Source: Dehalococcoidales bacterium
GTDB taxonomy: Bacteria; Chloroflexota; Dehalococcoidia; Dehalococcoidales; UBA5760
Length of the DNA stretch: 64,000 nt
Assembly (NCBI GenBank): GCA_028716225.1
Contig: JAQUQE010000008.1
Span: forward strand, 1 to 64,000
Direction of reading: 5' to 3'
Part shown: positions 49,014-63,816 of the stretch, in pieces
Position numbering within the stretch: position 1 is the first letter of the stretch
How the letters are laid out: every line of letters starts with the position of its first letter
The notes under the pieces: model-generated
Seen by the model: the letters and a program-made list of their open reading frames with translations, nothing else
What the model was told of the DNA's origin: nothing
The model's database searches: none
Made by a program: the position numbers and the translations under genes

Positions 49014-49667
49014 TTATGCCAGCGACTTGATCAACTTCCAGACTACGGTCTCACAGAGCACGGTGATGTCCTCGGTAGACAGGTAATCGGTAATACCGGA
49101 GTCGAAGATTATGCTCGCTGAAGGAGCAAACTCGGCGTCGCCTCTCCACAGGACCGGCGTTATCGTTACGAAAGGGAAGGCCTGGATAGCTACCGCCGTA
49201 TCACCGTAGTCCGCCCTACGACCGCCCAGCTTTTCAGCAGCGTCGAGCATCCGGTCGGGCTCTTTGCCGAAGCGGGCCAGCAGCGGATCCAACGTTCTCT
49301 TGGCAAAGGTCGGGAAATAAACCGGCCCTTCGGGCAGCTCCTTGAAGGTGATGGCCCTGCCGGCGGCCGGAGTTCTCCGGGCCAGAGTCAGGTAGTGCAG
49401 CATCAGGACCTTCTCTCTGATCGACACCGGCTCCTGACTGCCGGCCGGAGTGATATCGACATCGGGCAGGGTAATCCAGTACGACCGGTTGAGGTAGGTA
49501 AGGGCGATAGCCATCGGGGCGCCGCCCTCGAGATAGCGGGCACCGCTCATAGCGCACAGCTTGCTGATATCACGGCGGTTAAGCTCTTCAGCAGCGAGCC
49601 GATAGGCCAGGCCATAGGCCTGTTCATAGTGACGCTGGTGGGGAAGTGGAAGACGGCTGTTTTCCAT
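49014..49667 (-). CDS. DUF3786 protein
   Basis: 217 aa from the ATG at 49667. The longer in-frame extension to 49817 would overlap metF and is not supported. GGAPMAIALTYLNRSYWITL, FPTFAKRTLDPLLARFGKEP and PFVTITPVLWRGDAEFAPSA match DUF3786, which repeatedly occurs with corrinoid iron-sulfur and acetyl-CoA synthase genes. A folding or cofactor role is likely but unproven. Between metF and the thiamine-binding gene. Confidence 0.8.
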   Translation of the reverse strand: MENSRLPLPHQRHYEQAYGLAYRLAAEELNRRDISKLCAMSGARYLEGGAPMAIALTYLNRSYWITLPDVDITPAGSQEPVSIREKVLMLHYLTLARRTPAAGRAITFKELPEGPVYFPTFAKRTLDPLLARFGKEPDRMLDAAEKLGGRRADYGDTAVAIQAFPFVTITPVLWRGDAEFAPSASIIFDSGITDYLSTEDITVLCETVVWKLIKSLA

Positions 49668-49741
49668 TCTAAAAATACCGCGGCAACTTATCCTTGAGCG
49701 GAGAACTCCTGCCAACCTTAATATTCCCCTCTTATCGAGGG

Positions 49742-50626
49742 TTATAGCCCAGAGGCTTTCAGGATAGCCGGTACGTACCTGTCCCAGCCCAGGGTCATCA
49801 GGTGAGCACCCTGGCACATATCCTTCATCTCTTTGAGCAATCCGGCGGTAATCTCTATCGAGGTCTTCACCTTATCGTCGGCACCGGCCATCCGGTCAAT
49901 AATATCCTGGGGCACGAAAATACCCGAGACATTCTTGTTCATATACCGGGCCATACCGGCATTCTTGAGGGGTATCAACCCCACCAGAACAGGGACCTTA
50001 AAACCTTCCTGCTCCACCCTCTTCATGAACTTCTCGAAGAGCCGAACATCAAAGACGGCCTGGGTCTGAAAGAACCTGGCCCCGGCTTCAATCTTTTTCG
50101 CCATCTTGATAATCTGCAGCTCGAAGGAGGCTTCGGAATCAGCTCCCGGGTTGACCACCGCTCCGGCGAAGAAATCGGGCGTGCCCTGAAGCTCATTCCC
50201 CACCATATCGTGGCCCCCGTTCAGTGTTTTGATCATCTCGAGGAGCTGTACCGAGTCCACATCATAGACCAGCTTGGCCTGGGGGTGATCACCGAACGAG
50301 GGCAAGTCTCCGGTGATTGCCAGGACGTTCTCCAGGCCCAGGACGGCTGCGCTCAGCAGGTCCGATTCCAGAGCTATCCGGTTACGGTCCCGGGTGACAA
50401 CCTCAAACACGATCTCGAGTCCGGCGTCCAAGGCCAGGTGACAGGCAGCCAGCGCTCCCAGCTTCATCACCGCACTCTGCTGATCGGTAACGTTGGCGGC
50501 AGCCACCCTGCCCTTAAGAATCCTGGCCGCCTCCCGGATCCCGCTGGTATCGGTCCCCTTCAGCGGGACTATCTCGGCGGTAACGGTAAATTCTCCCGCC
50601 TCAAGTTGAGATCGCATCAAGCTCAA
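49742..50626 (-). CDS. metF: methylenetetrahydrofolate reductase
   Basis: 294 aa from a TTG at 50626 with AGGAGG 9 nt upstream (an ATG at 50617 and longer readings exist). TIM-barrel MTHFR: FTVTAEIVPLKGTDTSGIRE, AANVTDQQSAVMKLGALAAC, VLAITGDLPSFGDHPQAKLV and IEAGARFFQTQAVFDVRLFE. Reduces 5,10-methylene-THF to 5-methyl-THF for the methyl branch. No metV (zinc-protein partner) gene is in the window. Its start lies 14 bp from the acsE stop. Confidence 0.85.
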   Translation of the reverse strand: MSLMRSQLEAGEFTVTAEIVPLKGTDTSGIREAARILKGRVAAANVTDQQSAVMKLGALAACHLALDAGLEIVFEVVTRDRNRIALESDLLSAAVLGLENVLAITGDLPSFGDHPQAKLVYDVDSVQLLEMIKTLNGGHDMVGNELQGTPDFFAGAVVNPGADSEASFELQIIKMAKKIEAGARFFQTQAVFDVRLFEKFMKRVEQEGFKVPVLVGLIPLKNAGMARYMNKNVSGIFVPQDIIDRMAGADDKVKTSIEITAGLLKEMKDMCQGAHLMTLGWDRYVPAILKASGL

Positions 50627-50639
50627 TTTATTATTCCTC

Positions 50640-51530
50640 CTACACCTCAAGCCAGGAAACGGAATAGAGCGACTCGCCGGTAAGTACTCTGACCGTTTTT
50701 GCGTACCTGGTCTCCTCTTGATCCAAAGAGGCAAGGTCCGGCCCCTCGCCGTCCATCAAACGTTGTACCAGATCAACCAGGTCCGGCCGCCTGCCCCGGG
50801 CAATTTCAATCAACTCGGAGTCAAAGGCATCCACTATTGCCGAGTGCAGCCCGTATTTCATCAACATCATCAAATAGGTCCGGTTGAGATACGGCCGGAG
50901 ATCCTTAGGAGTTCCGTTGGAGACATTGGACAGCCCCACGGTAGACTTGCAACCCGGAGCAATATCCTGAAGCATACTCATAAACTCCAGACAGGGCTGT
51001 ACCTGGTTAGTATCGGCACTGCTGGCCGGGGTCACAATCGGGTCGAGCCAGATATCCTCATTGGGTATCCCCGCTTTGTTCGCTTCATAGACAAGCTCCG
51101 CCGCTATCATGCCTCTTTCCGCAGCATCCCGGGGCATTCCCTCTCTGCCCCACAAGAGGCCAATCATCTCGGCACCATAACGCTTGACTAGGGGAAATCC
51201 TGCTTCCATCCGGACCAGGGATATCGAGTTAACCAGCGCCCGGTCATCTCCACAGATCCTCAGCCCGGCTTCTATCGCCGCCGGGTTAGTCGTATCAAGG
51301 GACAGGGGCTTATCGGTAACATCGCGCACGGTCTTGACTACCCATTCCATCAAATCCTCTCCCGCCCGGCGGGCGGGGCCGATATTGAGGTCAAGGTAGT
51401 CCATCCCGGCCTCGACCTGGGCCCGAACCATCTCCTGAACCGGCCCGGGGGTTCTTTTCTTAAAGGCAGGCCCGAGAGTGGTCGATACGATATTAATATT
51501 TTCTCCGATCAGAATCACCGCTCTCCTCAC
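50640..51530 (-). CDS. acsE: methyltetrahydrofolate:corrinoid iron-sulfur protein methyltransferase
   Basis: 296 aa; a GTG at 51530 or a GTG four codons later (MILIGENINIV) may be the start. LIGENINIVSTTLG, MDYLDLNIGPARRAGEDLME, KPLSLDTTNPAAIEAGLRIC and TVGLSNVSNGTPKDLRPYLN are the pterin-binding TIM-barrel motifs of AcsE. It passes the methyl group of methyl-THF to cobalt in the AcsCD protein. Start overlaps the acsC stop by 1 nt. Confidence 0.92.
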   Translation of the reverse strand: MRRAVILIGENINIVSTTLGPAFKKRTPGPVQEMVRAQVEAGMDYLDLNIGPARRAGEDLMEWVVKTVRDVTDKPLSLDTTNPAAIEAGLRICGDDRALVNSISLVRMEAGFPLVKRYGAEMIGLLWGREGMPRDAAERGMIAAELVYEANKAGIPNEDIWLDPIVTPASSADTNQVQPCLEFMSMLQDIAPGCKSTVGLSNVSNGTPKDLRPYLNRTYLMMLMKYGLHSAIVDAFDSELIEIARGRRPDLVDLVQRLMDGEGPDLASLDQEETRYAKTVRVLTGESLYSVSWLEV

Positions 51531-52873
51531 TATCCCTGCCAGGCTTTAAGATAAGCTGTGATGTGAGCCCCTTCCCGGGGCCCGACCTGGATTTCCCAAC
51601 CGGGTAATTCCTCCTCCAATCCCCCGCTCTCAACGGCAAGATAGCCGGGGATAGTCAGCTTCCTGTGTTTGATCCGGTCACCGATAGCACACTTCTTAAC
51701 GAAGGTGCCGATGACATCGGCGCTGAATTTCCCGGCTGCCCAGGCAGTCAGGACGGAAAGACCTTCGGTATCCATAACGATAAGATAGCTGGAGACCCGG
51801 CTGCTTTCAATCTCACCGGAGACAATAAAGTAGGTCAGGGAGAAGTTGCAGGTAAGCAACACCGGGGAATTCTCGTCTGGCCCGCCGATCTCGTAAATAC
51901 CCGCGGTGGTCGCCAGAGGACGCTGGGGGTCGGTATAGATATTCATCCTCTCCACAAGCAGGGGGAACAGGCTCTCCCCTTGAAAATCGGAGAGGACGAC
52001 AATCCCTCCGTATTTGGCAATGAACATGGAGGCAATCAGGGCTTCCTTCATCGGATCACCAGTCATCTCGGCAGGGAAGACGATGGTAGGAAAGCCTAGG
52101 GGCCGGAACTTCTTATTCAGGGCAAGGCTCCTGATGTTTACCTGGTCCTCCAACGCCCGGCGGACCGACCTTGCTCCGGAATCGATCACGATATCCTTAA
52201 CGCCGGCTCCGGTAAGCCGGGCGGTCAGCTGGCTGAGCTCTTCCAGACCGGAGCCCTTCACTACTACCGGACAGGAATGTGCTTTGGCCAGTTCCGCTAC
52301 CGACTCCAGATTATCTTTACCGGCGGCATATATCAGGGGCCTCCGGTCGGCACAGGCCTTCAGGCCGGAGGCTAGAACAGCCGGATCATCGCTCATCAGG
52401 ATAATACCAACATCACTCTTTTCCTTTACCCTGCCGGACAGGGCAGCAAACCGGGCCGCATCTCCGGAATCGCACTTCAGTGCGACCAGCTCGGGACGGA
52501 GGATGACCCCTACCCTCTCATAACTAATGTCGGATCTAGCCAACCTGTTATCGACCTCAGCATCACTCATTGTATCGCTGATGAGGATGGCAAACCCCGG
52601 GGGGTTCTCAAACCTCTTTTCATGGCGGAACATAACCGTCTCACCGCCAACCTTGAGAGCCCGGGGGCCGGTACCAATGGTCACTGTGGCCACCGGCGGT
52701 GCTGAGGCCTCCGACAGCTTCTCCCTGGCCTGATCGGAAACATAGGGACAGGAGGAGAGCTCCGCCTTGCCCGCCGCCAGACCCATGGCAAAGGCAAGGC
52801 AGGTGGGCACTCCACACTCGCCGCAGTTCGTCTTGGGAAGCAGCTTGAATATCTCTATTCCGGTAAGTGGCAT
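51530..52873 (-). CDS. acsC: corrinoid iron-sulfur protein, large subunit
   Basis: 447 aa, usual length. N-terminal 4Fe-4S motif PKTNCGECGVPTCLAFAMGL with C17, C20, C25 and C42. TIM-barrel middle, then the C-terminal corrinoid-binding region (FSLTYFIVSGEIESSRVSSY and LSVLTAWAAGKFSADVIGTF). With AcsD it carries methyl-cobamide to the acetyl-CoA synthase. 16 bp from acsB. Firm. Confidence 0.93.
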   Translation of the reverse strand: MPLTGIEIFKLLPKTNCGECGVPTCLAFAMGLAAGKAELSSCPYVSDQAREKLSEASAPPVATVTIGTGPRALKVGGETVMFRHEKRFENPPGFAILISDTMSDAEVDNRLARSDISYERVGVILRPELVALKCDSGDAARFAALSGRVKEKSDVGIILMSDDPAVLASGLKACADRRPLIYAAGKDNLESVAELAKAHSCPVVVKGSGLEELSQLTARLTGAGVKDIVIDSGARSVRRALEDQVNIRSLALNKKFRPLGFPTIVFPAEMTGDPMKEALIASMFIAKYGGIVVLSDFQGESLFPLLVERMNIYTDPQRPLATTAGIYEIGGPDENSPVLLTCNFSLTYFIVSGEIESSRVSSYLIVMDTEGLSVLTAWAAGKFSADVIGTFVKKCAIGDRIKHRKLTIPGYLAVESGGLEEELPGWEIQVGPREGAHITAYLKAWQG

Positions 52874-52889
52874 TAGATAGACTCCTCTC

Positions 52890-55097
52890 TTAGTCCAGTA
52901 TCGACTCCATGTTCAGGGCAGGGTGTTCCTTCTCCTGAAGGAAGGGGAGAATCTCTTCTTCCGTACAGCCCACCGTTTCGTCGGCGATCCTGTCAAACAG
53001 GTCGGGAACACCGAGCTCATCGGCCCTGGCCCGGATACGTTCGCGAAGCTCTTCCTTGAGCATCTTAGGCATCCAGACCATCCTCAACAGGCCGCCATCG
53101 GCACTTATGAACTTTCTCTGGCAGATATTATACTTGCCATGACCGATAAAACCGGGGGTGCTGATGCCACCGCCGATAGTCCCGGCCAGGGTAGTAAACT
53201 TCATCCCGCAGGGGGTCATCCCGGTGAACTCCCGGTTTACCGTCATTACGCCATTGCACAGGGGCAGGACGGCAGCGACACACTCACAGCACCCACAGGT
53301 AGTCCACGGATCATTGACGATACTGTACATGCAGTAGTGGTCCAGGTTACCGCGGGAAGCCTTGTAGATGAAATCGTTAACCCCCTGCCACATCCCTAAC
53401 TTGGTGTCAAGAGCCTCACCCTTCTCTATCGGCTGGTTGGGCCCGGTAGGGTTAATCTCAAAAGCGGCTTTACAGTCCATCCAGTTGTAAGAACCGCAGA
53501 GGCCAGTCTTCTCCGGGGTAATGACACAGACATGACTGGGAGCGAACGACTGACAGAGCAAGCAGGAGTAATAGGTATCCGTAGTCTCATCGGTCATCCC
53601 CTCAATCCGGGCATCCCTGGCGGCATATATTGCCTTTGACTGCTCCAATACCTGCCTTACTCCGTCCTCATCGGTGTAGAGCTTGACCTGCAGCTTATCG
53701 AATATACGTCCGAAGCTCTGGTGCAGCTTGGCATGGAGCAAAGAACCGATATGACCTATCTTGAAGCCCTTTTCCTTGGCCGTGTTGCTAATGCGCATCC
53801 AGGCAATGTCCCGCTGCCCGCTGTGCCATACTCCCTGCGCATAATTAACCAGGTGATGGATCTGGCGTTCCAGGATTGGTTCGTAGTCCTCCTGGAGCTC
53901 CCTGCCGGCAACCTCAACGACAATCGCCAGCGGTAGAGTACCACCCGGCTCGACATCGTCTATATCGGGACCGATCACCTCAACCTTACCATCTTCTACT
54001 TCGTCCATCCGCCGTGAGGTTACCAGTTCAACCATCGGAGACCGGTTGCCACCCATCTCCAGATAGAACTCACCCTTGCGTATACGCTCACCCTCGAAGG
54101 CAGGCCCGAAGGCTACCGGGATGGGTACCTCGGCAACACTGGTCTTCAGTCCCCTTACCTCCACTGCCTTAGCTACGATATTATCATGCGGGATATTAGA
54201 GACAACGTGCTCATAGGTACAGATACCGGTGGGCAAAATCTCGGGTATCGGGGTGTCGGCAATGGTGGGGAACCCCCAGTTGACCGCTCCCACCGCATTA
54301 GCATACCACTCATCGGTAACGTAACCCATCGGCATGACGAAGGAAAAGACCCGGTCTTTATTATAGATAAGTATCTTCCTGAAATCACCGGGCTCAACAC
54401 CGCCGAAGGAAAGAGCAACCCTGGTAGCAAAGCCCATGGCAAACACGGCCGAGGTGATATCGGGTCCGAAGGAAACCAGTCGGGTCGGCCACCCGATCTG
54501 TACGCCGGCCTGCAACAGCTGCTCGGCAAACCCCTGACCGTTGTACCGGCCGACCATAAAAACATAGAGGTTCTTCTCCTGAAGCTCCTGGGCCACCTTC
54601 TTGGCTATCTCCGCATTAGGTGCCGCGCCGACGATAGCGGCAAAGCCGGGGGCAGTACCATCAACAAACTCGACTCCCCGCTTCCTCAGAATAATGTCAT
54701 CGGCAGTCCCCAGCCAGATGGTACTCCCGGTGACATCTTCCTGCCTGGTGTAAAAATCGGGCTGCTCCAGATACCTGATTGCCTCGATGATTTCCTCAGC
54801 GAAGAAGGTGGCCATGCCGGCATCAAGCGCCGGCGCCAGATAGGGTAGAGCATGCTCTTCTCTTACCGGCGGCGGCAGCAGAGAGCGACATCTTTCCAGT
54901 ACCGGCCCGGCGTCACCCAGCTTCTCCACCTTAAGTCCCAGTATTCCGTAGATTACCGGCAGATAGTAGGCGGTATCGGGAAAGCCTATCGGCTCATTAG
55001 CTCCCCACTTATCCATTGCCTCCCGCCACTTCTGATTAGCCTGTCCTACAATCTTGTGGGCTCCGCGGATAGCAGCTGATGCGATTATCTTCGACAC
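52890..55097 (-). CDS. acsB: acetyl-CoA synthase (A-cluster subunit)
   Basis: 735 aa, full length relative to the Moorella enzyme (729). All A-cluster ligands are present: YSCLLCQSFAPSHVCVITPE gives C512, C515 and C524; TGLCGSYNWMDC gives C534; TTCGCCECV gives C601 and C603, matching Moorella C506, C509, C518, C528, C595 and C597 at a constant +6 offset. The gating Phe (F518) is kept, and the N-terminal domain that docks on CODH is also present. The enzyme assembles acetyl-CoA from methyl, CO and CoA (or cleaves it). Located directly after the CooS-like gene (33 bp). Confidence 0.95.
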   Translation of the reverse strand: MSKIIASAAIRGAHKIVGQANQKWREAMDKWGANEPIGFPDTAYYLPVIYGILGLKVEKLGDAGPVLERCRSLLPPPVREEHALPYLAPALDAGMATFFAEEIIEAIRYLEQPDFYTRQEDVTGSTIWLGTADDIILRKRGVEFVDGTAPGFAAIVGAAPNAEIAKKVAQELQEKNLYVFMVGRYNGQGFAEQLLQAGVQIGWPTRLVSFGPDITSAVFAMGFATRVALSFGGVEPGDFRKILIYNKDRVFSFVMPMGYVTDEWYANAVGAVNWGFPTIADTPIPEILPTGICTYEHVVSNIPHDNIVAKAVEVRGLKTSVAEVPIPVAFGPAFEGERIRKGEFYLEMGGNRSPMVELVTSRRMDEVEDGKVEVIGPDIDDVEPGGTLPLAIVVEVAGRELQEDYEPILERQIHHLVNYAQGVWHSGQRDIAWMRISNTAKEKGFKIGHIGSLLHAKLHQSFGRIFDKLQVKLYTDEDGVRQVLEQSKAIYAARDARIEGMTDETTDTYYSCLLCQSFAPSHVCVITPEKTGLCGSYNWMDCKAAFEINPTGPNQPIEKGEALDTKLGMWQGVNDFIYKASRGNLDHYCMYSIVNDPWTTCGCCECVAAVLPLCNGVMTVNREFTGMTPCGMKFTTLAGTIGGGISTPGFIGHGKYNICQRKFISADGGLLRMVWMPKMLKEELRERIRARADELGVPDLFDRIADETVGCTEEEILPFLQEKEHPALNMESILD

Positions 55098-55130: not shown

Positions 55131-56897
55131 TCAGGCTGCGTCCAGTTCACGTCTCATATCCATATCATAGAGGATTCTCTCTCTGGCCTTATCGATACCT
55201 AATGCCCTGCGCTTTCGGTCAATATGCTCAATCATCAGTCGAGATGCCCCAATCGGGTCCGGCTCAAACGCCCACATACCACCATAAAGCTTCTCGAAAT
55301 CATTAGATAGGAAATCGGTCATCCCCCGGCTACCCAGAGCCGAGCCGTCTATGCCCAGCACGGTAAATACTCCCGAGCCGACAAAGTACTGACCGATTGA
55401 GGCTGCCGGCTCACTGACCCACTCCAGGTCAGCTCCGGCTACCGGCAGTTCGCTGATATCATCACCCAAACCGCCATCCTTAACCATCATCGTCGCTGCA
55501 ACCAAGATACGGGTATTATCGACATCGGAGCCGAGGTGCAATACCGGTGGAATACCAACAGCTTCGCAGACCGAGGCCAGTCCTTTACCGGCATACTCGG
55601 CAGCCGCTTCAGGCACCATCAGGCCGGCTTCGGCACAGGCTATAGCGCTGAAACCGGTCTGCAAAACCAGGACATCATTTTTGATAAGCTCCTTAACCAG
55701 AACAACGTGAGCGCCATCGGGAGTAACCCGGACACCATCTCCGCCGACAACGCCGGCCACCCCTCTTATCCTGCCGTTAATAATGTTCTCATTCAAAGGG
55801 CGATAAGATGCCCGGAACAGCCCACCCAGAAGGTAATTGATAGTCTCGTGGCTGAAGCCGGCAATAAGGTCAACTTCTCGTCGCGGCACCGGTATACCGG
55901 CATCCCGATTGGTGAAGTTATCAATGGCTATCCGGACAATTTCCCGCGCCGATTCTGCAGCATTATGTCCACTGAATTCAATATGCGGAGCACCTGCAAC
56001 ACGAGCACGGGGATCGGTAGTAATCACCCTGGTGTGGTAGCACCGGGCTACATCGGCCAGACCATGCATAATACACCGGGCATCAACTACTACGGCATCC
56101 AACAATCCGCTCAGAACAGCCAGTTCTTGCTGCAGAACGCTACCGGCAGGAGGTATGCCGTGACGCATTAATACCTCGTCGGCGATGCCGCCCATACCGG
56201 CCAGGTTTATTCCTTTGGCCCCCCTGGACCTGGCGTATTCGATAATATCAGGCTCTTTAATCACCGCTGTCAGCATAACGGCAAGCTCGGGATCGTGCCC
56301 ATTAATAAGCAGATTGACGGCATCCTTCTTAAGAGTGCCGGGGCATATCCTGCCCAGAAAAGGAGCCGGAGTACCGAAGATGACATCCTTTAGCTCAGTG
56401 GCAATCATACTGCCCCCCCAGCCATCAGAAAGCGCGGTCCGAACCGTCTGTTTCAGCAAACTCTTGAAATCCTGGTCGGCCCCCATATCAGTAGAGTGCA
56501 TCGTCGCCGCTACTTCCCTGTCTATGCCGCGCGGGGCAACCCACTGTTTGCGCCAGAGTTCCTGCCGCCTGAGTGGCGCTCGCCTGAGAAACAGGGCTTC
56601 TCCCGCCTGTCCGTCAAACGCCTTCATGACAGCTTCGCCAACATCAATGGCGATTGCCTCACTGCTACGCTCACCGATCTCCACACCGAGTTCCAGAGCC
56701 AGCTGCAGCAGCTTCTGCTCATCCTTTATCCCATAGCCCGGTACCTCATCTCTTGCCACGGCGAGGAACAGCTCAGTAACACTGCGGGCATGATTACCAT
56801 GGGCAGTCGCACCACCGGCAACCATACGAGCAAAATTACCAGCGGCAACAGACTCGGCATTAGCTTTGTTTTCTTTTTCCAATATTTTCCGCCTCAC
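55131..56897 (-). CDS. CooS-family carbon monoxide dehydrogenase homologue lacking cluster ligands
   Basis: 588 aa from a GTG at 56897, 2 nt after the acsD stop. CooS family is clear: TELKDVIFGTPAP, INGHDPELAV, ADEVLMRHGIPPAG, CIMHGLADVARCYHTRVITT, PVLHLGSDVDNTRILVAAT. Compared with C. hydrogenoformans CODH-II, about 60 N-terminal residues holding the B- and D-cluster cysteines are absent. C-cluster ligands: His261 kept (H201), Cys333 kept (C275), but Cys295 is Gly (G236/G237), Cys446 is Gly (G386), Cys476 is Phe (F416), Cys526 is Asp (D458). Lys563 is Pro (P497). Only five cysteines occur in total. A catalytically dead scaffold is the simplest reading; residue equivalences are from memory of the CODH-II sequence. 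Confidence 0.85.
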   Translation of the reverse strand: MRRKILEKENKANAESVAAGNFARMVAGGATAHGNHARSVTELFLAVARDEVPGYGIKDEQKLLQLALELGVEIGERSSEAIAIDVGEAVMKAFDGQAGEALFLRRAPLRRQELWRKQWVAPRGIDREVAATMHSTDMGADQDFKSLLKQTVRTALSDGWGGSMIATELKDVIFGTPAPFLGRICPGTLKKDAVNLLINGHDPELAVMLTAVIKEPDIIEYARSRGAKGINLAGMGGIADEVLMRHGIPPAGSVLQQELAVLSGLLDAVVVDARCIMHGLADVARCYHTRVITTDPRARVAGAPHIEFSGHNAAESAREIVRIAIDNFTNRDAGIPVPRREVDLIAGFSHETINYLLGGLFRASYRPLNENIINGRIRGVAGVVGGDGVRVTPDGAHVVLVKELIKNDVLVLQTGFSAIACAEAGLMVPEAAAEYAGKGLASVCEAVGIPPVLHLGSDVDNTRILVAATMMVKDGGLGDDISELPVAGADLEWVSEPAASIGQYFVGSGVFTVLGIDGSALGSRGMTDFLSNDFEKLYGGMWAFEPDPIGASRLMIEHIDRKRRALGIDKARERILYDMDMRRELDAA

Positions 56898-56899
56898 AA

Positions 56900-57847
56900 T
56901 TATGATATCGTAAGCTCAGCCATCATCTCCCGAACCAACCTGATTGCTTCGGGGTGTCTCATAATTATCACATCGCCACCGGCCAGGAGCAATACCATCG
57001 CCGATATCGCCTCCATCAGGATCCCCCTCTTTTTAGCATTACCCAGTGCCGAAGCTTCTTCATCGGGGGCGTGAGCCTCCCTGGTCTTCCACACCTCTTT
57101 GGCCAGGTTACAGATGATGGGGAACTGCAGTTTTTCATCCTGCTGGGCCAATCCGGCCACCCGCATTCTCTCCATTACCGAATAGCTGTACTCGATGCCA
57201 TAGCCCACACCGCTGGCGGTAGGGTCCATAATAATCTGCTCGTTGGGAACACCGAGATTCCCCAAGAGGATATTAAGCTGCTTGGCCAGGTTGATGTCGA
57301 TGGGCGAAGATGCGATCAGGGTATGCTTATAAGCAATAGCCTGAGCACCGATCTTCTTATAATTCCCTTCCTCGACCGGTCCGATGATCAGGTTCTTCCC
57401 CTGACAGACCTCAGCCACTCTTCTCAACACCCCGGTATCCTTCTCCAGATTGGCGGTACCCCATACGATTAAGGGAACATCAACGGCATCAGCTACCTTT
57501 TTCACCACCTCCGCCGCTTCATCAGCGCCGCGATCCAGGCCGTTGGGATCGGTGCTTTCTAGCTGCAGAGCAACCAGATCCGCTCCATAATCATCGACAC
57601 ATTTTTTCGCCCAGGCCACCGGGTCGCCAGTCACTCCCTCAAAGGGTTCCAGAGCAGCTTCGGCCCAATCCCTCGGCGGCGTATCGTAAACCTCCATAGC
57701 TATTCGGGGCAGCCTGGGCATCTCTCCTTCGAAAAGGTAGAAAGGGTAAGCGGTCTCGCCACCGACAACTACCTGCTTCGCTCCTTTACCAAGGGTGATC
57801 TCCCTTATCCGACCGTTATATATTGTTTTCGGAATTTCGAGAGCCAT
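56900..57847 (-). CDS. acsD: corrinoid iron-sulfur protein, small subunit
   Basis: 315 aa. TIM-barrel type: FYLFEGEMPRLPRIAMEVYD, VALQLESTDPNGLDRG, IIGPVEEGNYKKIGAQAIAY and IIMDPTASGVGYGIEYSYSV match AcsD. It partners AcsC, providing the cobalamin-capping domain. GGAG precedes the ATG by 7 nt. Followed directly by the CooS-like gene. Confidence 0.92.
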   Translation of the reverse strand: MALEIPKTIYNGRIREITLGKGAKQVVVGGETAYPFYLFEGEMPRLPRIAMEVYDTPPRDWAEAALEPFEGVTGDPVAWAKKCVDDYGADLVALQLESTDPNGLDRGADEAAEVVKKVADAVDVPLIVWGTANLEKDTGVLRRVAEVCQGKNLIIGPVEEGNYKKIGAQAIAYKHTLIASSPIDINLAKQLNILLGNLGVPNEQIIMDPTASGVGYGIEYSYSVMERMRVAGLAQQDEKLQFPIICNLAKEVWKTREAHAPDEEASALGNAKKRGILMEAISAMVLLLAGGDVIIMRHPEAIRLVREMMAELTIS

Positions 57848-57852
57848 CGACT

Positions 57853-58133
57853 AACTCCTTTCTCCAGGCCGGCCTTTTTCTCTTCTCACTGCCATACCAG
57901 CCTTTACCGTACAAATATCGCTCGCCAGTCTGTAGATATTTAAGCTTTTTATCACAGTCGTTAAGCTCATTTCACCACAGTTCTATCTATTTTCCATTTT
58001 CCCTCAGGATTACTCACTTAACAGATTGCCCCCAGAATCATTGCCTTCTCTCCATCAGAGACGATTATTCCCTCAATCTAGCATTCCATATCGATCTTCT
58101 TCCCATCCTTAACACCTTCTATACTAAACCTGT
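57853..58133 (-). pseudogene. decayed gene between folD and acsD
   Basis: Protein-like but broken frame: FSIEGVKDGKKIDMEC, TAG, IEGIIVSDGEKAMILGAIC, TAA, NPEGKWKIDRTVVK, then in another frame KLKYLQTGERYLYGKGWYGS. At least two stops and one shift. No start codon; unknown family. A short ORF (57851-57970) in yet another frame is probably a shadow. Confidence 0.45.
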
Positions 58134-59012
58134 CACCAGCTTAGCTGCCTTTACCGTATTCAGCATTAGCATAGTGATGGTCATCGGACCGACACCACCA
58201 GGCACCGGAGTAATTGCTTTGGCCTTTTTCTTCACGGCATCGAAATCCACGTCGCCAACCAAAATATCCTTACCCTCAGCAGTCTTCCCAACCCGGTTAA
58301 CTCCGACATCAATGACTACTACCCCCTCTCTGACCATATCAGCAGTAACAGCTTTAGGCTTACCTACAGCCACTATTATGATATCAGCTCGCTTAGTGTG
58401 AAATAGAACATTTCTGGTTCGGGTATGACAGACGGTAACGGTAGCATTAGCCCCATCACTATTCTGAAGGAGAATATTGGCTATCGGCTTACCGACGATG
58501 TTACTCCGACCAACTACGACCACTTCTGCCCCTTCAAGTTTAACCCCGCTGCGCACCAAAAGTTGCTGTATGCCATGAGGGGTGCAAGGTAGATAATCTG
58601 GCTGGCCGATCATTAGCTTACCCAAATTCATCGGATGGAAACAATCGACATCCTTCTTTGGATTAATGGTATATATGACTTTAGCCTCATTAATATGCTT
58701 AGGCAGCGGTAGCTGTACTAAAATCCCGTGAATATTTGGTGATTCATTAAGTCTACCAATCAAAGCTAAGAGATTCTCTTCACTGGTATCCGTAGACAGA
58801 TCGTACCTTTCGGAATAAATCCCCATAATATTAGAAGTCTTTTCCTTCTGTCCAACGTAGACTTGAGACGCTGGGTCTTCGCCAACTAGAACCGTAGCCA
58901 GTCCTGGGACTAGTCCATGTTTCTCCTTGAGTATAGCTATTTCCGCCTTCAGTTCCTCACGAATTTGCTTAGCAATCTCAGTACCACTAATAATACGTGC
59001 TGACATCTTCAT
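58119..59012 (-). CDS. folD: bifunctional methylenetetrahydrofolate dehydrogenase/cyclohydrolase
   Basis: 297 aa, typical length. Conserved: GLATVLVGEDPASQVYVGQK with the catalytic Lys region (YVGQKEK), HGILVQLPLPKHINEAKVIY, DVDCFHPMNLGKLMIG, VVVGRSNIVGKPIANILLQN and PVPGGVGPMTITMLMLNTVK. It produces 5,10-methylene-THF for MetF. Cytoplasmic. In the C1 operon between cooC and acsD. Confidence 0.95.
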   Translation of the reverse strand: MKMSARIISGTEIAKQIREELKAEIAILKEKHGLVPGLATVLVGEDPASQVYVGQKEKTSNIMGIYSERYDLSTDTSEENLLALIGRLNESPNIHGILVQLPLPKHINEAKVIYTINPKKDVDCFHPMNLGKLMIGQPDYLPCTPHGIQQLLVRSGVKLEGAEVVVVGRSNIVGKPIANILLQNSDGANATVTVCHTRTRNVLFHTKRADIIIVAVGKPKAVTADMVREGVVVIDVGVNRVGKTAEGKDILVGDVDFDAVKKKAKAITPVPGGVGPMTITMLMLNTVKAAKLVTGLV

Positions 59013-59099: not shown

Positions 59100-59855
59100 T
59101 TATCTAAAAAGCTTAGCCATCAAATCATTAACTGCTGTAACCGCTTTGGAAGTACCGGGTAAATCGAGTAACGGCCTTAACTCGACATCGTACTGACACA
59201 CTTCTTCGTCCAGAGGTATCAAGGCCGCCGGTTCGATTGCCAGCCGGAGCAACTCCTTCTGGACGATAGGGGCCAACCGGAGTGGAGCGGGGTTGATTAT
59301 TACCGACTGCCTCTTTACACTGAGTTTTAGCTGGGCGACAATATCCCTGACACGTGCGACAGTGCGCACCCCTTTAACCGTCGGGTTAGCGATAATAAGC
59401 AATTCATCGACATCCTGGGTGGTTCTCCGCGACAGGTGCTCCAACCCCGCCTCATTATCCATAACCACATAGGCATAATTTTCGGCCAGTCTATCCACAA
59501 ACTTCCGTAAGACAAGGTTGGGATAGCAATAGCACCCGGATCCCTCCCCCCTACCCATCGTCACCAGGTCAAGCTTATCGTCTTCGACGATAACCCCGTT
59601 TAACCGGCACTCCAGGTAGGCTTCTTTAGTCATTCCCGGAGGAATTTCTATATTGTCCCTCTGGAACTCATCGAGAATCATACCGACCGTCCTTTTAACC
59701 TCAAGACCCAGACTCTCGCCCAGGTTGGCATTAGGATCAGCATCAATAGCCAGTATCGAACCGGAACCATTCTCCTTGAGGTAACGGATAATCAGACTGG
59801 CTATTGATGTCTTACCGCTGCCGCCTTTTCCCGCCAGAGCTATGGAAAGAGTCAA
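59100..59855 (-). CDS. cooC: nickel-insertion ATPase CooC/AcsF type
   Basis: 251 aa. Deviant Walker A ALAGKGGSGKTSIASLIIRY, then the CooC signature GRGEGSGCYCYPN with C108 and C110 forming the dimer metal site. Switch residues DNEAGLEHLSRRTTQDVDEL are also typical. It matures the Ni site of CODH or ACS; here AcsB is the only cluster-bearing client in the operon. Overlaps the RACo gene by 4 nt. Confidence 0.92.
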   Translation of the reverse strand: MTLSIALAGKGGSGKTSIASLIIRYLKENGSGSILAIDADPNANLGESLGLEVKRTVGMILDEFQRDNIEIPPGMTKEAYLECRLNGVIVEDDKLDLVTMGRGEGSGCYCYPNLVLRKFVDRLAENYAYVVMDNEAGLEHLSRRTTQDVDELLIIANPTVKGVRTVARVRDIVAQLKLSVKRQSVIINPAPLRLAPIVQKELLRLAIEPAALIPLDEEVCQYDVELRPLLDLPGTSKAVTAVNDLMAKLFR

Positions 59856-61840
59856 ACCGTTAACCTCCCCCTCGTTTTCCCGCCCGCCAGTCCGGATAGT
59901 CTCTTGCTTACATTGGGAAACTCATCGGCATTGGTATGGGGTAAGAAGAGAGCAGCGACGTAGTGGTGCATAAAATCGGGACTTTCGCCGAGTTCAAGAC
60001 TGGTCATCATCATGGCTACCCTCCTGGCGTCATCAAGCAGGTCGGTAGAGTAGGAGACCAGCCTGCTCCCGTTCAGAGAACCATTGCCAACAAAGATAAA
60101 CCTATCCCGGGGAATATCGGGAAGGAGGCCGATGGTAATACTCTTCTCAATGTCAATATGACTGCCGAAGGCCCCGGCGATAATTATCTGCTCCAGATCG
60201 GCGCAGGTAATCCCGACACTTCCGGTCAGTGTCTGACAGCCAGCATACATCGCCGCCTTGGCCCGGATGAGATTGTCAATGTCCACTTCGGTAATCACGA
60301 TATCCCTACCGGTCTGGTTCTCTATCGCCCGGGAAAGAACGTATTCGTAACCATCGCTACCTTTTCTAATTCTATCGGTGACCAGGTCGGTGTTGAATTT
60401 GCCGTTGCGGCCGATAACCCCGGCTTCAAGCAGCCCGGCAACAATATTCAGCAGGCCCGAACCGCAGATTCCCTTCGGTTTGACTCCGCCGATAGTATGT
60501 ACCTCCGGCTCCAGATCTGCCAGGCTGATAGCAAAGTCTTCAATCGCTCCGCTGGTGGCTATCATACCGTGCTTGATACCACCGCCTTCAAAAGCAGGAC
60601 CGGCCGAGCAGGCAGCGGTTACCATCCATTCCGAATTACCGATCACTATCTCGCCGTTGGTGCCGATGTCCATATAGAGAGTAAGCCTCTCCCGCTGGTG
60701 GATCCCGGCCGCCACCACTCCTGAGACAATATCACCGCCGACATAGCTGGCTACGGAAGGAAAGACGAAAATATGGACATGCTTTGCCGCGTTAATACCC
60801 AGTGACCTTGCCTTCACCGGAGGGAAAAAGCTGGCCGCCGGGGTATAAGGGGCTAACCTGATATATTTAGGATTGATGCCGAGCAGGATATGGGTCATTG
60901 TGGTATTACCGGCGATGGTCACATGCCCGATGTCTGCCGCCCTGACCTGGCTCCGGGCCGAAAGATCGTCGATAACCTGATTGATAGTAGCCACCACAGC
61001 CTGCTGCAGCTTTTTAAGACCGCCCGGTTTCAGACAGTAGGAGATGCGGGTAATAACATCTGCTCCGTAGTCCACCTGTCCGTTGTAGGCCATACCTTCG
61101 GTAATGACCTCACCCCGGCTCAGATCCAGCAGCTGCCCGCAGACGGTAGTCGTCCCGATGTCAAACGCCAGTGAGAAGTACCTCTGGCTGGTGTTTCCCG
61201 GTTCTATGTTTATTATCGTGGGCTTACGCTTATCGGCTTTCGTCTTGACCGCCTTGACCAGAGTTGTCGCAGTAACATGGTAGTTTTTCTTGCGCAGAAC
61301 CGAAGGCAGTTTCCTTACCACATCAAGGGCTACTCCGGTATGATTAAGGCTGCACTGCTTCTTTAAGCCTCTCAACAAACGGGACAGGTCCGAGGTATTA
61401 TCCGCCGAGGTCGGTGGCGGCAGTTCAAGATAACACTTGCTTAGGGGCGGATTAAATCTCCAACCGGTAGCGATCGCCTCAGCAGGCCCTACTCTACCCC
61501 CCGTCATCTTTACTTCCCGGTTTACTACCGCGGTCTCCAGCCTTGACTCTACCGGAACATTAACAATCAAATCGGTGAGCACCCTGCTCCGGCAAGCCTG
61601 CCGGATACCCTGCTGCCACTCTTCCGGAGAGAGCTTCTCACTACGACTACTCTCCACCTCACCGCTTTCAATCCGTACCTTACAGGTGCCACAGACACCG
61701 GCTCCTCCGCAAGAGGCGATGACACGCACGCCGGCATCAACAGCCGTCTGGAGCAGGTTAGCCCCCCTCTCCACGACAATGCTAACATTATCGGGCTCAA
61801 AACGAACCTTTACCTTCTTGTAAGCACTACCTTCCTTCAT
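59852..61840 (-). CDS. reductive activator of corrinoid iron-sulfur protein (RACo-type)
   Basis: 662 aa. N-terminal plant-type 2Fe-2S domain with C44, C50, C53 and C83 (ASCGGAGVCGTCKVRIESG), a linker, then an ASKHA ATPase domain (FDIGTTTVCGQLLDLS, MDIGTNGEIVIGNSEWMVTA and VGITCADLEQIIIAGAFGSH). It reduces inactive Co(II) corrinoid to Co(I) with ATP, keeping AcsCD active. First gene of the C1 operon. Confidence 0.9.
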   Translation of the reverse strand: MKEGSAYKKVKVRFEPDNVSIVVERGANLLQTAVDAGVRVIASCGGAGVCGTCKVRIESGEVESSRSEKLSPEEWQQGIRQACRSRVLTDLIVNVPVESRLETAVVNREVKMTGGRVGPAEAIATGWRFNPPLSKCYLELPPPTSADNTSDLSRLLRGLKKQCSLNHTGVALDVVRKLPSVLRKKNYHVTATTLVKAVKTKADKRKPTIINIEPGNTSQRYFSLAFDIGTTTVCGQLLDLSRGEVITEGMAYNGQVDYGADVITRISYCLKPGGLKKLQQAVVATINQVIDDLSARSQVRAADIGHVTIAGNTTMTHILLGINPKYIRLAPYTPAASFFPPVKARSLGINAAKHVHIFVFPSVASYVGGDIVSGVVAAGIHQRERLTLYMDIGTNGEIVIGNSEWMVTAACSAGPAFEGGGIKHGMIATSGAIEDFAISLADLEPEVHTIGGVKPKGICGSGLLNIVAGLLEAGVIGRNGKFNTDLVTDRIRKGSDGYEYVLSRAIENQTGRDIVITEVDIDNLIRAKAAMYAGCQTLTGSVGITCADLEQIIIAGAFGSHIDIEKSITIGLLPDIPRDRFIFVGNGSLNGSRLVSYSTDLLDDARRVAMMMTSLELGESPDFMHHYVAALFLPHTNADEFPNVSKRLSGLAGGKTRGRLTV

Positions 61841-61995: not shown

Positions 61996-63816
61996 TCATG
62001 CTGGGAAATCTACAACCACTGTTGTGCCTTTACCCTTATGCGAATCAATTCTGAGACTACCGTCTAATAGTCGTACTCGTTCACTCACGCTGACCAAACC
62101 TAATTTTCCTTTACGGGCTAGGTTACTTAATTCTTGAGGCGGATCGAAACCAATACCATTGTCGTTCACACAGAGTCTAACCTTCTTTCTCGCAAAACAA
62201 ACTTCTATTGAAGCTTCTGTCGCTTGAGAGTGTTTCTTAACATTATTCAATGCCTCTTGAGCAATACGAAATAATAACAACTCTTGCTCTGATGGTAATC
62301 GAAGCTCATATCCGATTTTTTTTACAGTGGTATGGGGGCCTCCTGTTAGCTCGGATTCTTTAGCCAATAATTCCAGGGCGACTGATATTCCTAATTCATC
62401 TAAGAGATCAGGGCGAAGATTATGGCTAAAGCGCCGAACTCCGTCAGCTATGCTTCTAGTAGTACGTTGAATATTTCTGAGCTTTTCTATCAAAGACAAT
62501 GGCATCCGTTTTTCCGTGCGTATAATAGTCTCAATATTGATCCCTAGGGTAAGTAAAGACTGAACTGTATCATCGTGAAGTTCACGAGCGATACGTTTCC
62601 TCTCCTCCTCTTGTGCCTTAGTAATCTCCGTTACGTACAACTGTAAATTTTCCTTCAGTCTTTCACGTTCTGTTATATCAGTCCAAGTTTCTAGAGAGTA
62701 GCGATACCTTCCATATCGCTTTATTGGTATCGATGTTGTTTCAACCAATAGCCGCCTACCATTTCTTCCTCTAAACAATCGTTCAACAGCTCTATTTCCT
62801 TTGAGTAAATCATGACGTAAGGAATCAAGTCTCTTATCACGTGTTTCCTCTGGCCACCAAGGATATGGTGCTCTACTACCAATAACCTTTGCAGAAGAGA
62901 AACCTGTAATTCTTTCTAGTGCTGGATTAATATATCTAACCGATGTGTCTTCGTTAATAACGATTATTGGATTCGGAGAATTACTCAGCAACTTAGAACT
63001 AAATTCCTCGCTCTCCTGTAAAGCCTCTTCCATCTTTTTACGCTCGGTCATGTCTCTTATTGTGTGTATTAGGCATATTTCACCACTGATTTCTATCAAA
63101 TCTGCCGACAGTAAACCAAAACGTAGTTCACCCGATTTAGATCTAAAAGATACTTCAAGATCTCTTATCACCCCATCTTTCCGCAGCAAACGAGCCATTT
63201 CATTACGATCATCAGGATGTGGCCAGAAGCCTAGTTCAATTCCGGTACGGCCGACAACCTCATCACGCTGATAGCCCCAAATACGAAGAAAAATGTCATT
63301 TATCTCAATATATCTTCCCTCACTCAGGGTACTAATAGCCATCGGTTCGGGATTAGAATAGAAAGCCTTTGAGAACTTTTCTTCGGAGACAAGTAAAGCC
63401 TCTTCCATCTTTTTACGCTCGGTCATGTCTCTTATTGTGTGTATTAGGCATATTTCACCACTGATTTCTATCAAATCTGCCGACAGTAAACCAAAACGTA
63501 GTTCACCCGATTTAGATCTAAAAGATACTTCAAGATCTCTTATCACCCCATCTTTCCGCAGCAAACGAGCCATTTCATTACGATCATCAGGATGTGGCCA
63601 GAAGCCTAGTTCAATTCCGGTACGGCCGACAACCTCATCACGCTGATAGCCCCAAATACGAAGAAAAATGTCATTTATCTCAATATATCTTCCCTCACTC
63701 AGGGTACTAATAGCCATCGGTTCGGGATTAGAATAGAAAGCCTTTGAGAACTTTTCTTCGGAGACAAGTAAAGCCTCTTCCATCTTTTTGGTAACAGCCT
63801 TTTTACCTGTGGTCAT
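61996..63816 (-). CDS. PAS-domain sensor histidine kinase with exact tandem repeat
   Basis: 606 aa. Two identical PAS/PAC units of 125 residues (EEALLVSEEKFSKAFYSNPE to IHTIRDMTERKKM) at about 10-260, a third, divergent PAS at about 265-390, then a HisKA_3 domain (ERKRIARELHDDTVQSLLTL with the phospho-His) and a HATPase (LRLPSEQELLLFRIAQEALN, VNDNGIGFDPPQ). NarL-family type kinase. No response regulator is adjacent in the window. Soluble: no membrane segment is seen. Confidence 0.9.
   Translation of the reverse strand: MTTGKKAVTKKMEEALLVSEEKFSKAFYSNPEPMAISTLSEGRYIEINDIFLRIWGYQRDEVVGRTGIELGFWPHPDDRNEMARLLRKDGVIRDLEVSFRSKSGELRFGLLSADLIEISGEICLIHTIRDMTERKKMEEALLVSEEKFSKAFYSNPEPMAISTLSEGRYIEINDIFLRIWGYQRDEVVGRTGIELGFWPHPDDRNEMARLLRKDGVIRDLEVSFRSKSGELRFGLLSADLIEISGEICLIHTIRDMTERKKMEEALQESEEFSSKLLSNSPNPIIVINEDTSVRYINPALERITGFSSAKVIGSRAPYPWWPEETRDKRLDSLRHDLLKGNRAVERLFRGRNGRRLLVETTSIPIKRYGRYRYSLETWTDITERERLKENLQLYVTEITKAQEEERKRIARELHDDTVQSLLTLGINIETIIRTEKRMPLSLIEKLRNIQRTTRSIADGVRRFSHNLRPDLLDELGISVALELLAKESELTGGPHTTVKKIGYELRLPSEQELLLFRIAQEALNNVKKHSQATEASIEVCFARKKVRLCVNDNGIGFDPPQELSNLARKGKLGLVSVSERVRLLDGSLRIDSHKGKGTTVVVDFPA
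63028..63777. repeat. exact 375-bp tandem repeat within the kinase gene
   Basis: Two adjacent 375-bp units (about 63028-63402 and 63403-63777) are identical as far as read. The period equals 125 codons, so the duplication keeps the frame and gives two identical PAS domains. Confidence 0.9.

Follow-up and report, generated by a model that had tools for sequence, protein, structure and literature searches.

CODH/ACS ranks among the oldest and best-studied metalloenzyme complexes, with the CODH half usually regarded purely as the CO source. What, then, could a CODH subunit be doing beside acetyl-CoA synthase once most of its metal ligands are lost? This question is raised by an acs operon in the window, the whole stretch of 64,000 nucleotides that was analysed, which comes from a Dehalococcoidales bacterium genome (G000, 96% complete). 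The operon runs in the order acsV, cooC-like, folD, acsD, pseudo-CODH, acsB, acsC, acsE, metF-like, DUF3786, where pseudo-CODH designates a CooS/AcsA-family pseudoenzyme. Its main features are the following.

59852..61840, minus strand: acsV-like corrinoid activation protein (profile search, operon comparison)
59100..59855, minus strand: CooC/AcsF-like ATPase of the MinD/ParA P-loop type (profile search, operon comparison)
58119..59012, minus strand: folD (operon comparison; identity read from the sequence)
56900..57847, minus strand: acsD, CoFeSP delta subunit (profile search)
55131..56897, minus strand: pseudo-CODH, listed length 588 aa, true start probably TTG 56882
56889..56895, minus strand: Shine-Dalgarno-like GAGGCGG, 6 nt ahead of the likely TTG start (read from the sequence)
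52890..55097, minus strand: acsB, acetyl-CoA synthase, 735 aa, with the A1 (CODH-binding) domain and the A-cluster cysteines present (profile search, alignment)
51530..52873, minus strand: acsC, CoFeSP gamma subunit (profile search)
50640..51530, minus strand: acsE, methyltransferase (profile search)
49742..50734, minus strand: metF-like gene (MTHFR; weak PF02219 match), its true start likely downstream of the listed one

The CooC/AcsF-like ATPase may be involved in nickel insertion, judging from its place in the operon.

An earlier sequence-only reading of this DNA had reported a CooS homologue of 588 aa with an intact frame, packed 2 nt after acsD and 33 nt before acsB. The ORF, on the minus strand (which that reading did not give), contains no internal stop, the protein matches PF03063 (E=1e-124, profile search), and the coordinates agree with both spacings, which confirms that description. 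The protein falls below the curated cut-off of NCBIfam CO_DH_cata (TIGR01702; 458.9 vs 478 bits), and its best relatives of solved structure are the CODHs of D. vulgaris and Thermococcus. The listed GTG start at 56897 overlaps the likely ancestral Shine-Dalgarno sequence, and initiation at TTG 56882, giving 583 aa, appears more likely from the placement of GAGGCGG. A relative has ATG at the position of this TTG, the ancestral ATG having become ATA-TTG in the window gene. The same GAGGCGG is found in a second species, Dehalococcoidales bacterium STD1_192 (G396), and GAGGTGG in G397, the nearest congener, which carries a normal CODH.

Metal ligands were located by alignment with the D. vulgaris CODH and about 70 canonical relatives, including CODHs of the order, and are numbered after C. 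hydrogenoformans CODH-II (ChCODH-II).

56864..56865, minus strand: junction of a 71-codon in-frame deletion (DNA of G000, G396 and G397)
56295..56297, minus strand: H201 (ChCODH-II H261), C-cluster ligand kept (alignment)
56187..56192, minus strand: G236-G237 replacing the Cys295 pair, C295 and the neighbouring Cys (alignment)
56073..56075, minus strand: C275 (C333), the sole C-cluster Cys kept (alignment)
55740..55742, minus strand: G386 replacing C446 (alignment)
55650..55652, minus strand: F416 replacing C476 (alignment)
55524..55526, minus strand: D458 replacing C526 (alignment)
55407..55409, minus strand: P497 replacing the catalytic (acid-base) K563 (alignment)

Four of the five C-cluster cysteines are thus replaced, leaving the His and one Cys, and all six B/D-cluster cysteines are absent. 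The changes named beforehand (C295G, C446G, C476F, C526D and K563P, with H201 and C275 kept) were each found again in the alignment; no cysteine of the protein aligned at the replaced C-cluster positions, and the earlier account was correct in each detail checked. The missing N-terminal segment with the B/D cysteines, also part of that account, is borne out both by the alignment and by comparison with the DNA of G397, in which the loss appears as a single in-frame deletion of 71 codons. G397 and the window are common up to ...GAAAAAGAAAACAAA, and the window resumes at the Ala codon after the VCG of G397, so that ...EKENK is joined to (G)ATAE.... A hidden upstream frame carrying the B/D cysteines is ruled out by the same comparison. 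Lacking these residues, the pseudo-CODH cannot hold any of the three CODH clusters (B, D and C), and would therefore neither produce nor oxidize CO.

The same 71-codon deletion and the same six replacements are present in G396, where the gene was joined from two contigs sharing an exact 126-nt overlap; G386, F416, D458 and P497 are identical in both species. Sequencing error, misassembly or chance is judged unlikely, as this independent MAG has every change. By parsimony, the ligand losses precede the split between G000 and G396, so that the divergence of these two genomes measures selection after the loss. The domains carrying the strongest signal are these.

55197..55859, minus strand: Rossmann fold 2 (RF2, residues 347-567), most constrained domain (alignment, omega)
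55134..55196, minus strand: C-terminal tail helix (residues 568-588, ...DKARERILYDMDMRREL), with 11/11 invariants in all six pseudo-CODHs of the order

For the whole gene, pairwise maximum likelihood gives an omega of 0.215 (likelihood ratio 98.7; p=3e-23 vs 1), far below 1, and counting methods concur (0.17 to 0.25). By the same pairwise method, omega is 0.49 in the helical part, 0.21 in Rossmann fold 1 (RF1) and 0.083 in RF2 with the tail, and 0.080 in AcsB. Purifying selection acts on the pseudo-CODH, most strongly over the last 240 residues. The gene is not decaying and is not a pseudogene; it combines the loss of catalytic residues with maintained selection, as a pseudoenzyme does. The earlier proposal of selection on a non-catalytic product is supported by the values for the whole gene and for RF2 with the tail, and by the recurrence of such genes in two further lineages.

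This recurrence emerged from a survey of 156 genomes of the order, in which 97 CODH frames were examined. The full ligand set is present in 74 of them, and the others include contig-edge fragments; N-terminal truncations among these other frames coincide with contig ends or, in G430, with an N-filled gap. Four further frames are degenerate and intact, measuring about 419-437 aa: one in G439 (STB_90; 419 aa), one in G422 and two in G423. In these short versions the B/D segment is missing, as is the entire middle Rossmann fold, which carries H261, C295 and C333; C476 is replaced by Ser or Asp, and position 526 is Cys or Ser. All pseudo-CODHs sit between acsD and acsB, none of the six copies contains a stop or frameshift, and no canonical CODH was found in G000, G396, G439, G422 or G423.

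In the CODH tree, G000 and G396 group with the canonical G397, and G422/G423 with their canonical congener G424, whereas G439 stands apart. This tree and the AcsB tree each require three changes. One common origin for the six pseudo-CODHs is rejected (p-AU 0.021) and a grouping of G439, G422 and G423 weakly so (p 0.079), whereas the CODH gene on its own does not reject a clade of G000, G396 and G439 (p 0.40). Because of parsimony and the AcsB tree, about three independent origins are likely, though not proven. Two acs operons (L133 and L134) occur in the G423 MAG, and the short pseudo-CODH that each encodes shares about 50% identity with that of G439.

What the six proteins keep was counted over residues invariant in canonical CODHs, a comparison that rests on few independent events in draft, mostly metagenome-assembled genomes. 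Almost none of the B/D-segment invariants are kept, against 36-56 of 69 in the helical part. For RF1, 42-45 of 60 are retained in the window and G396, and almost none in the other four. At the RF2 start (39 aligned columns), the window and G396 have 33/33 and the others 22-29 of 33; alignment with the C. autoethanogenum CODH is weak here, at the docking loop. In the C-terminal tail, all six retain 11/11, the short ones being about 50-60% identical overall to their canonical sisters. The tail follows the pattern GIDKARERxLYDMxMRREL and forms a helix in both predicted models (window and G439). It is present in acs-operon CODHs of Chloroflexota, Myxococcota, Spirochaetota and others, and extends past the aligned end of the D. 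vulgaris, Thermococcus and C. autoethanogenum CODHs. Matches to CODHs on contigs without acsB end ahead of it, an association that has one exception (G100, with acsB nearby and no tail match) and is confounded with phylogeny. From this distribution, the tail may be the docking element here.

The AlphaFold2 model of the window protein (pLDDT 84, pTM 0.85) has a TM of 0.89 to CODH structures, including that of C. autoethanogenum CODH/ACS (6YTT), and the model of the G439 protein (pLDDT 79) reaches 0.83 over its own length, with a CODH as best match; as the input alignments contained canonical CODHs, these scores indicate compatibility with the CODH fold, not proof of it. Common descent with CODH is also seen in the PF03063 match and in the tree position beside the G397 CODH, while the place between acsD and acsB and the conserved tail are those of an acs-operon CODH. 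A role as scaffold or gas-channel partner for AcsB had been suggested. The scaffold is the better supported of the two, because the versions of G439, G422 and G423 retain RF2 and the C-terminal helix and have dropped the middle Rossmann fold, half of the C-cluster pocket; this deletion speaks against the gas channel.

In published structures, the A1 domain of ACS binds CODH. Continued binding of AcsB would be expected to leave A1 conserved where a pseudo-CODH is present and relaxed where CODH is gone. The comparison used about 150 A1 positions and 195 A2/A3 positions that are invariant in AcsB beside canonical CODH. In Dehalococcoidaceae and G287, whose operons lack CODH, AcsB lost 17-39 of the A1 invariants vs 7-16 of those in A2/A3, whereas A1 losses beside a pseudo-CODH amount to 4/151 in the window, 3 in G396, 8 in G439 and 11 in G423, a comparison confounded by age since the AcsB tree shows a single, old CODH-less clade. 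AcsB beside a pseudo-CODH has probably had less time for A1 losses, those lineages likely being younger. The 11 losses of G423 (vs 2 in A2/A3) fit some relaxation of A1, in keeping with its smaller subunit. Residues such as V78, P85, L243, N246, F251, Y295 and H297 show little or no variation between phyla; AcsB retains them wherever a pseudo-CODH is present, and most CODH-less AcsBs carry substitutions there.

The operon of Dehalococcoidaceae is otherwise the same, with acsD adjoining acsB, CODH absent and cooC present, so that the parallel drawn earlier with D. mccartyi holds. In G229 (L196, 5395-6705), AcsB is about 436 aa long and lacks the whole A1 domain, and its operon contains neither CODH nor cooC, a state that may represent the final stage of CODH loss. 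Within AcsB, T513L beside the A-cluster was considered as a compensating change and rejected, as the canonical G397 has it too. Separately, in the AcsBs of L098, L133, L134 and L135, Tyr265, invariant in canonical rows, is replaced by Cys, Ala or Gly, and Pro283 by Gln or Ala. Both lineages with a pseudo-CODH devoid of the middle domain show these changes, which look like parallel co-adaptation.

The reading favoured here, which is considered probable, is that the pseudo-CODH is a non-catalytic docking subunit kept for AcsB, representing an extant step on the way to the CODH-free ACS found in Dehalococcoides. It is supported by purifying selection, about three origins, the retention pattern, the tail distribution, the retention of AcsB A1 and the fold match. 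The two proteins would bind physically, RF2 and the C-terminal helix of the pseudo-CODH holding the A1 domain, and this docking may keep AcsB assembled, positioned, stabilised or regulated. Deprived of CODH, AcsB is limited to external CO or to CO release; it would then use CO from solution, or release CO on acetyl-CoA cleavage, as proposed for D. mccartyi. ACS is reported to take up dissolved CO even when the tunnel is blocked (PMC12289521), and D. mccartyi is described as cleaving acetyl-CoA for methyl groups and leaking toxic CO (PMC6113397, PMC7005905). As the window operon retains acsE and the metF-like gene, either direction of ACS is compatible with it, whereas in G439 ACS more likely cleaves acetyl-CoA to supply methyl groups because, as in the D. 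mccartyi-type G013, acsE and metF gave no match. Counting against docking are the fast helical region (omega 0.49) and the weak TTG start, as partial decay would give.

A broader proposal, plausible though held with somewhat less than even confidence, is that CODH turned about three times into a dead structural AcsB subunit, that the stepwise series is the route to the Dehalococcoides ACS, and that the conserved helix is the docking element. The series would lead from a normal CODH to a ligand-less pseudo-CODH, then to one with the middle domain deleted, to a CODH-free AcsB and lastly to an AcsB without the CODH-binding domain.

The gene could instead be a recently dead CODH heading for the complete loss seen in Dehalococcoidaceae, its constraint being a leftover, for example of avoiding toxic misfolding or of keeping translational coupling to acsB. 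The helical omega of 0.49, the TTG start, the long stem branch in the CODH tree (0.6 vs 0.06-0.14 for the tips) and the absence of the CODH gene from Dehalococcoidaceae and G287 are all in line with this. It is nevertheless unlikely, as omega in RF2 with the tail equals that of AcsB, whole domains were removed in frame elsewhere while the tail stayed complete despite such low identity to the sister proteins, and six copies are free of stops and frameshifts.

Less probable again is a chaperone or gate, whereby transient binding to A1 would aid nickel loading together with CooC/AcsF, or limit CO inhibition by restraining AcsB conformations. Indeed, the cooC-like gene stays in the operon, G229 lacks CODH, operon cooC and A1 alike, and CO is reported not to inhibit an ACS from which the N-terminal domain is missing (PMC12289521). 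Against it, cooC and AcsB persist in the CODH-less Dehalococcoidaceae, which have no pseudo-CODH, and no direct link of the pseudo-CODH to metal loading was found.

Binding of another cofactor or metal by H201, C275 and the new D458, with a new reaction, is very improbable. The identity of D458, P497, F416 and G386 in both species and the retention of H201 and C275 would agree with such a site, and the changed C-cluster site of C. hydrogenoformans CODH-V is cited as holding another cluster (PMC13240472), whereas here the electron-relay cysteines are all gone and H261 and C333 are deleted outright in the G439, G422 and G423 versions.

A search for another cooS, which the sequence-only reading had advised, found no second Ni-CODH in the G000 genome. 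Its only other Prismane-family gene, considered as another CODH, matches TIGR01703 and is a hybrid cluster protein (HCP); no Mo-CODH (CoxL) scored above the cut-off. That CODH activity comes from an unassembled CooS or the HCP, the pseudo-CODH being a leftover or mixed-dimer subunit, is the least probable of all: a gene could be missing from a genome 96% complete, and in another organism HCP has been suggested, though not proven, to stand in for CODH (PMC7000372), but canonical CODH is absent from all five pseudo-CODH genomes as assembled.

Compared with known systems, the docking subunit proposed here is homologous over residues 12-568 to the CODH subunit of bacterial CODH/ACS (C. autoethanogenum 6YTT, Moorella thermoacetica 1MJG). 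The two are alike in predicted fold (TM 0.89 to 6YTT) and in operon place beside acsB, and differ in that the pseudo-CODH is without the B-, D- and C-cluster ligand sets and the catalytic Lys. Changed C-cluster ligands are also described in CODH-V and in the Inoue groups A-4, A-6, B-1 to B-3, D-1 and G-1, and C. hydrogenoformans CODH-V is reported to lack CO/CO2 catalysis (PMC6344411, PMC13240472). As described in the broad CODH classification, such variants have one or two C-cluster changes and the B-cluster Cys are highly conserved (PMC6344411), whereas the pseudo-CODH has lost four of the five C-cluster Cys and all B/D Cys. The CODH-less acs operon of D. mccartyi (Zhuang et al. 2014, cited in PMC6113397 and PMC7005905) has the same order and an AcsB without a working CODH, but there the CODH gene is missing and A1 has diverged, whereas the window has a constrained pseudo-CODH and a conserved A1. 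HCP (prismane) belongs to the same Pfam family, PF03063; the pseudo-CODH has no TIGR01703 match (E<=0.001), and its nearest kin are acs-operon CODHs (75% identity).

No earlier description of such pseudo-CODHs was found in the openly licensed literature. A 2026 survey excluded every sequence in which a C-cluster Cys was missing or the B/D region was deleted (PMC13240472), and active-site filters in Ni-CODH surveys also appear in PMC11338639; filtering on these residues would discard, and so hide, the whole class. A pseudo-CODH under selection would mean that CODH serves AcsB in a second, non-catalytic way. How AcsB functions without CODH in Dehalococcoides becomes testable stage by stage, and the short versions (419-437 aa) are natural minimal constructs for mapping the docking surface.

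Several minor observations concern the operon and its surroundings. A metF-like gene is present in the acs operon of the window, G396 and G397, while metF is described as absent from all Dehalococcoidia genomes then known (PMC7005905). Formyl-THF synthetase is present in G000, split between contig ends. The G000 genome measures 2.64 Mb vs 0.8-1.3 Mb in eight others of its genus; among these eight, G156 (98% complete) has neither acsB nor CODH. The DUF3786 gene (49014-49817, minus strand) comes after the acs operon, an arrangement shared with many relatives, G013 among them, and is possibly linked to ACS. Near the operon, 45551-48265 (minus strand) encodes a GNAT-like domain fused to an apparent ADP-forming acyl/acetyl-CoA synthetase, a possible acetate/ATP link. 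Upstream, at 61996-63816 (minus strand), a PAS-domain histidine kinase carries at its N-terminus two modules of about 125 aa (MEEALLVSEEKFSKAFYSNPEP...) that appear identical, which suggests a recent internal tandem duplication.
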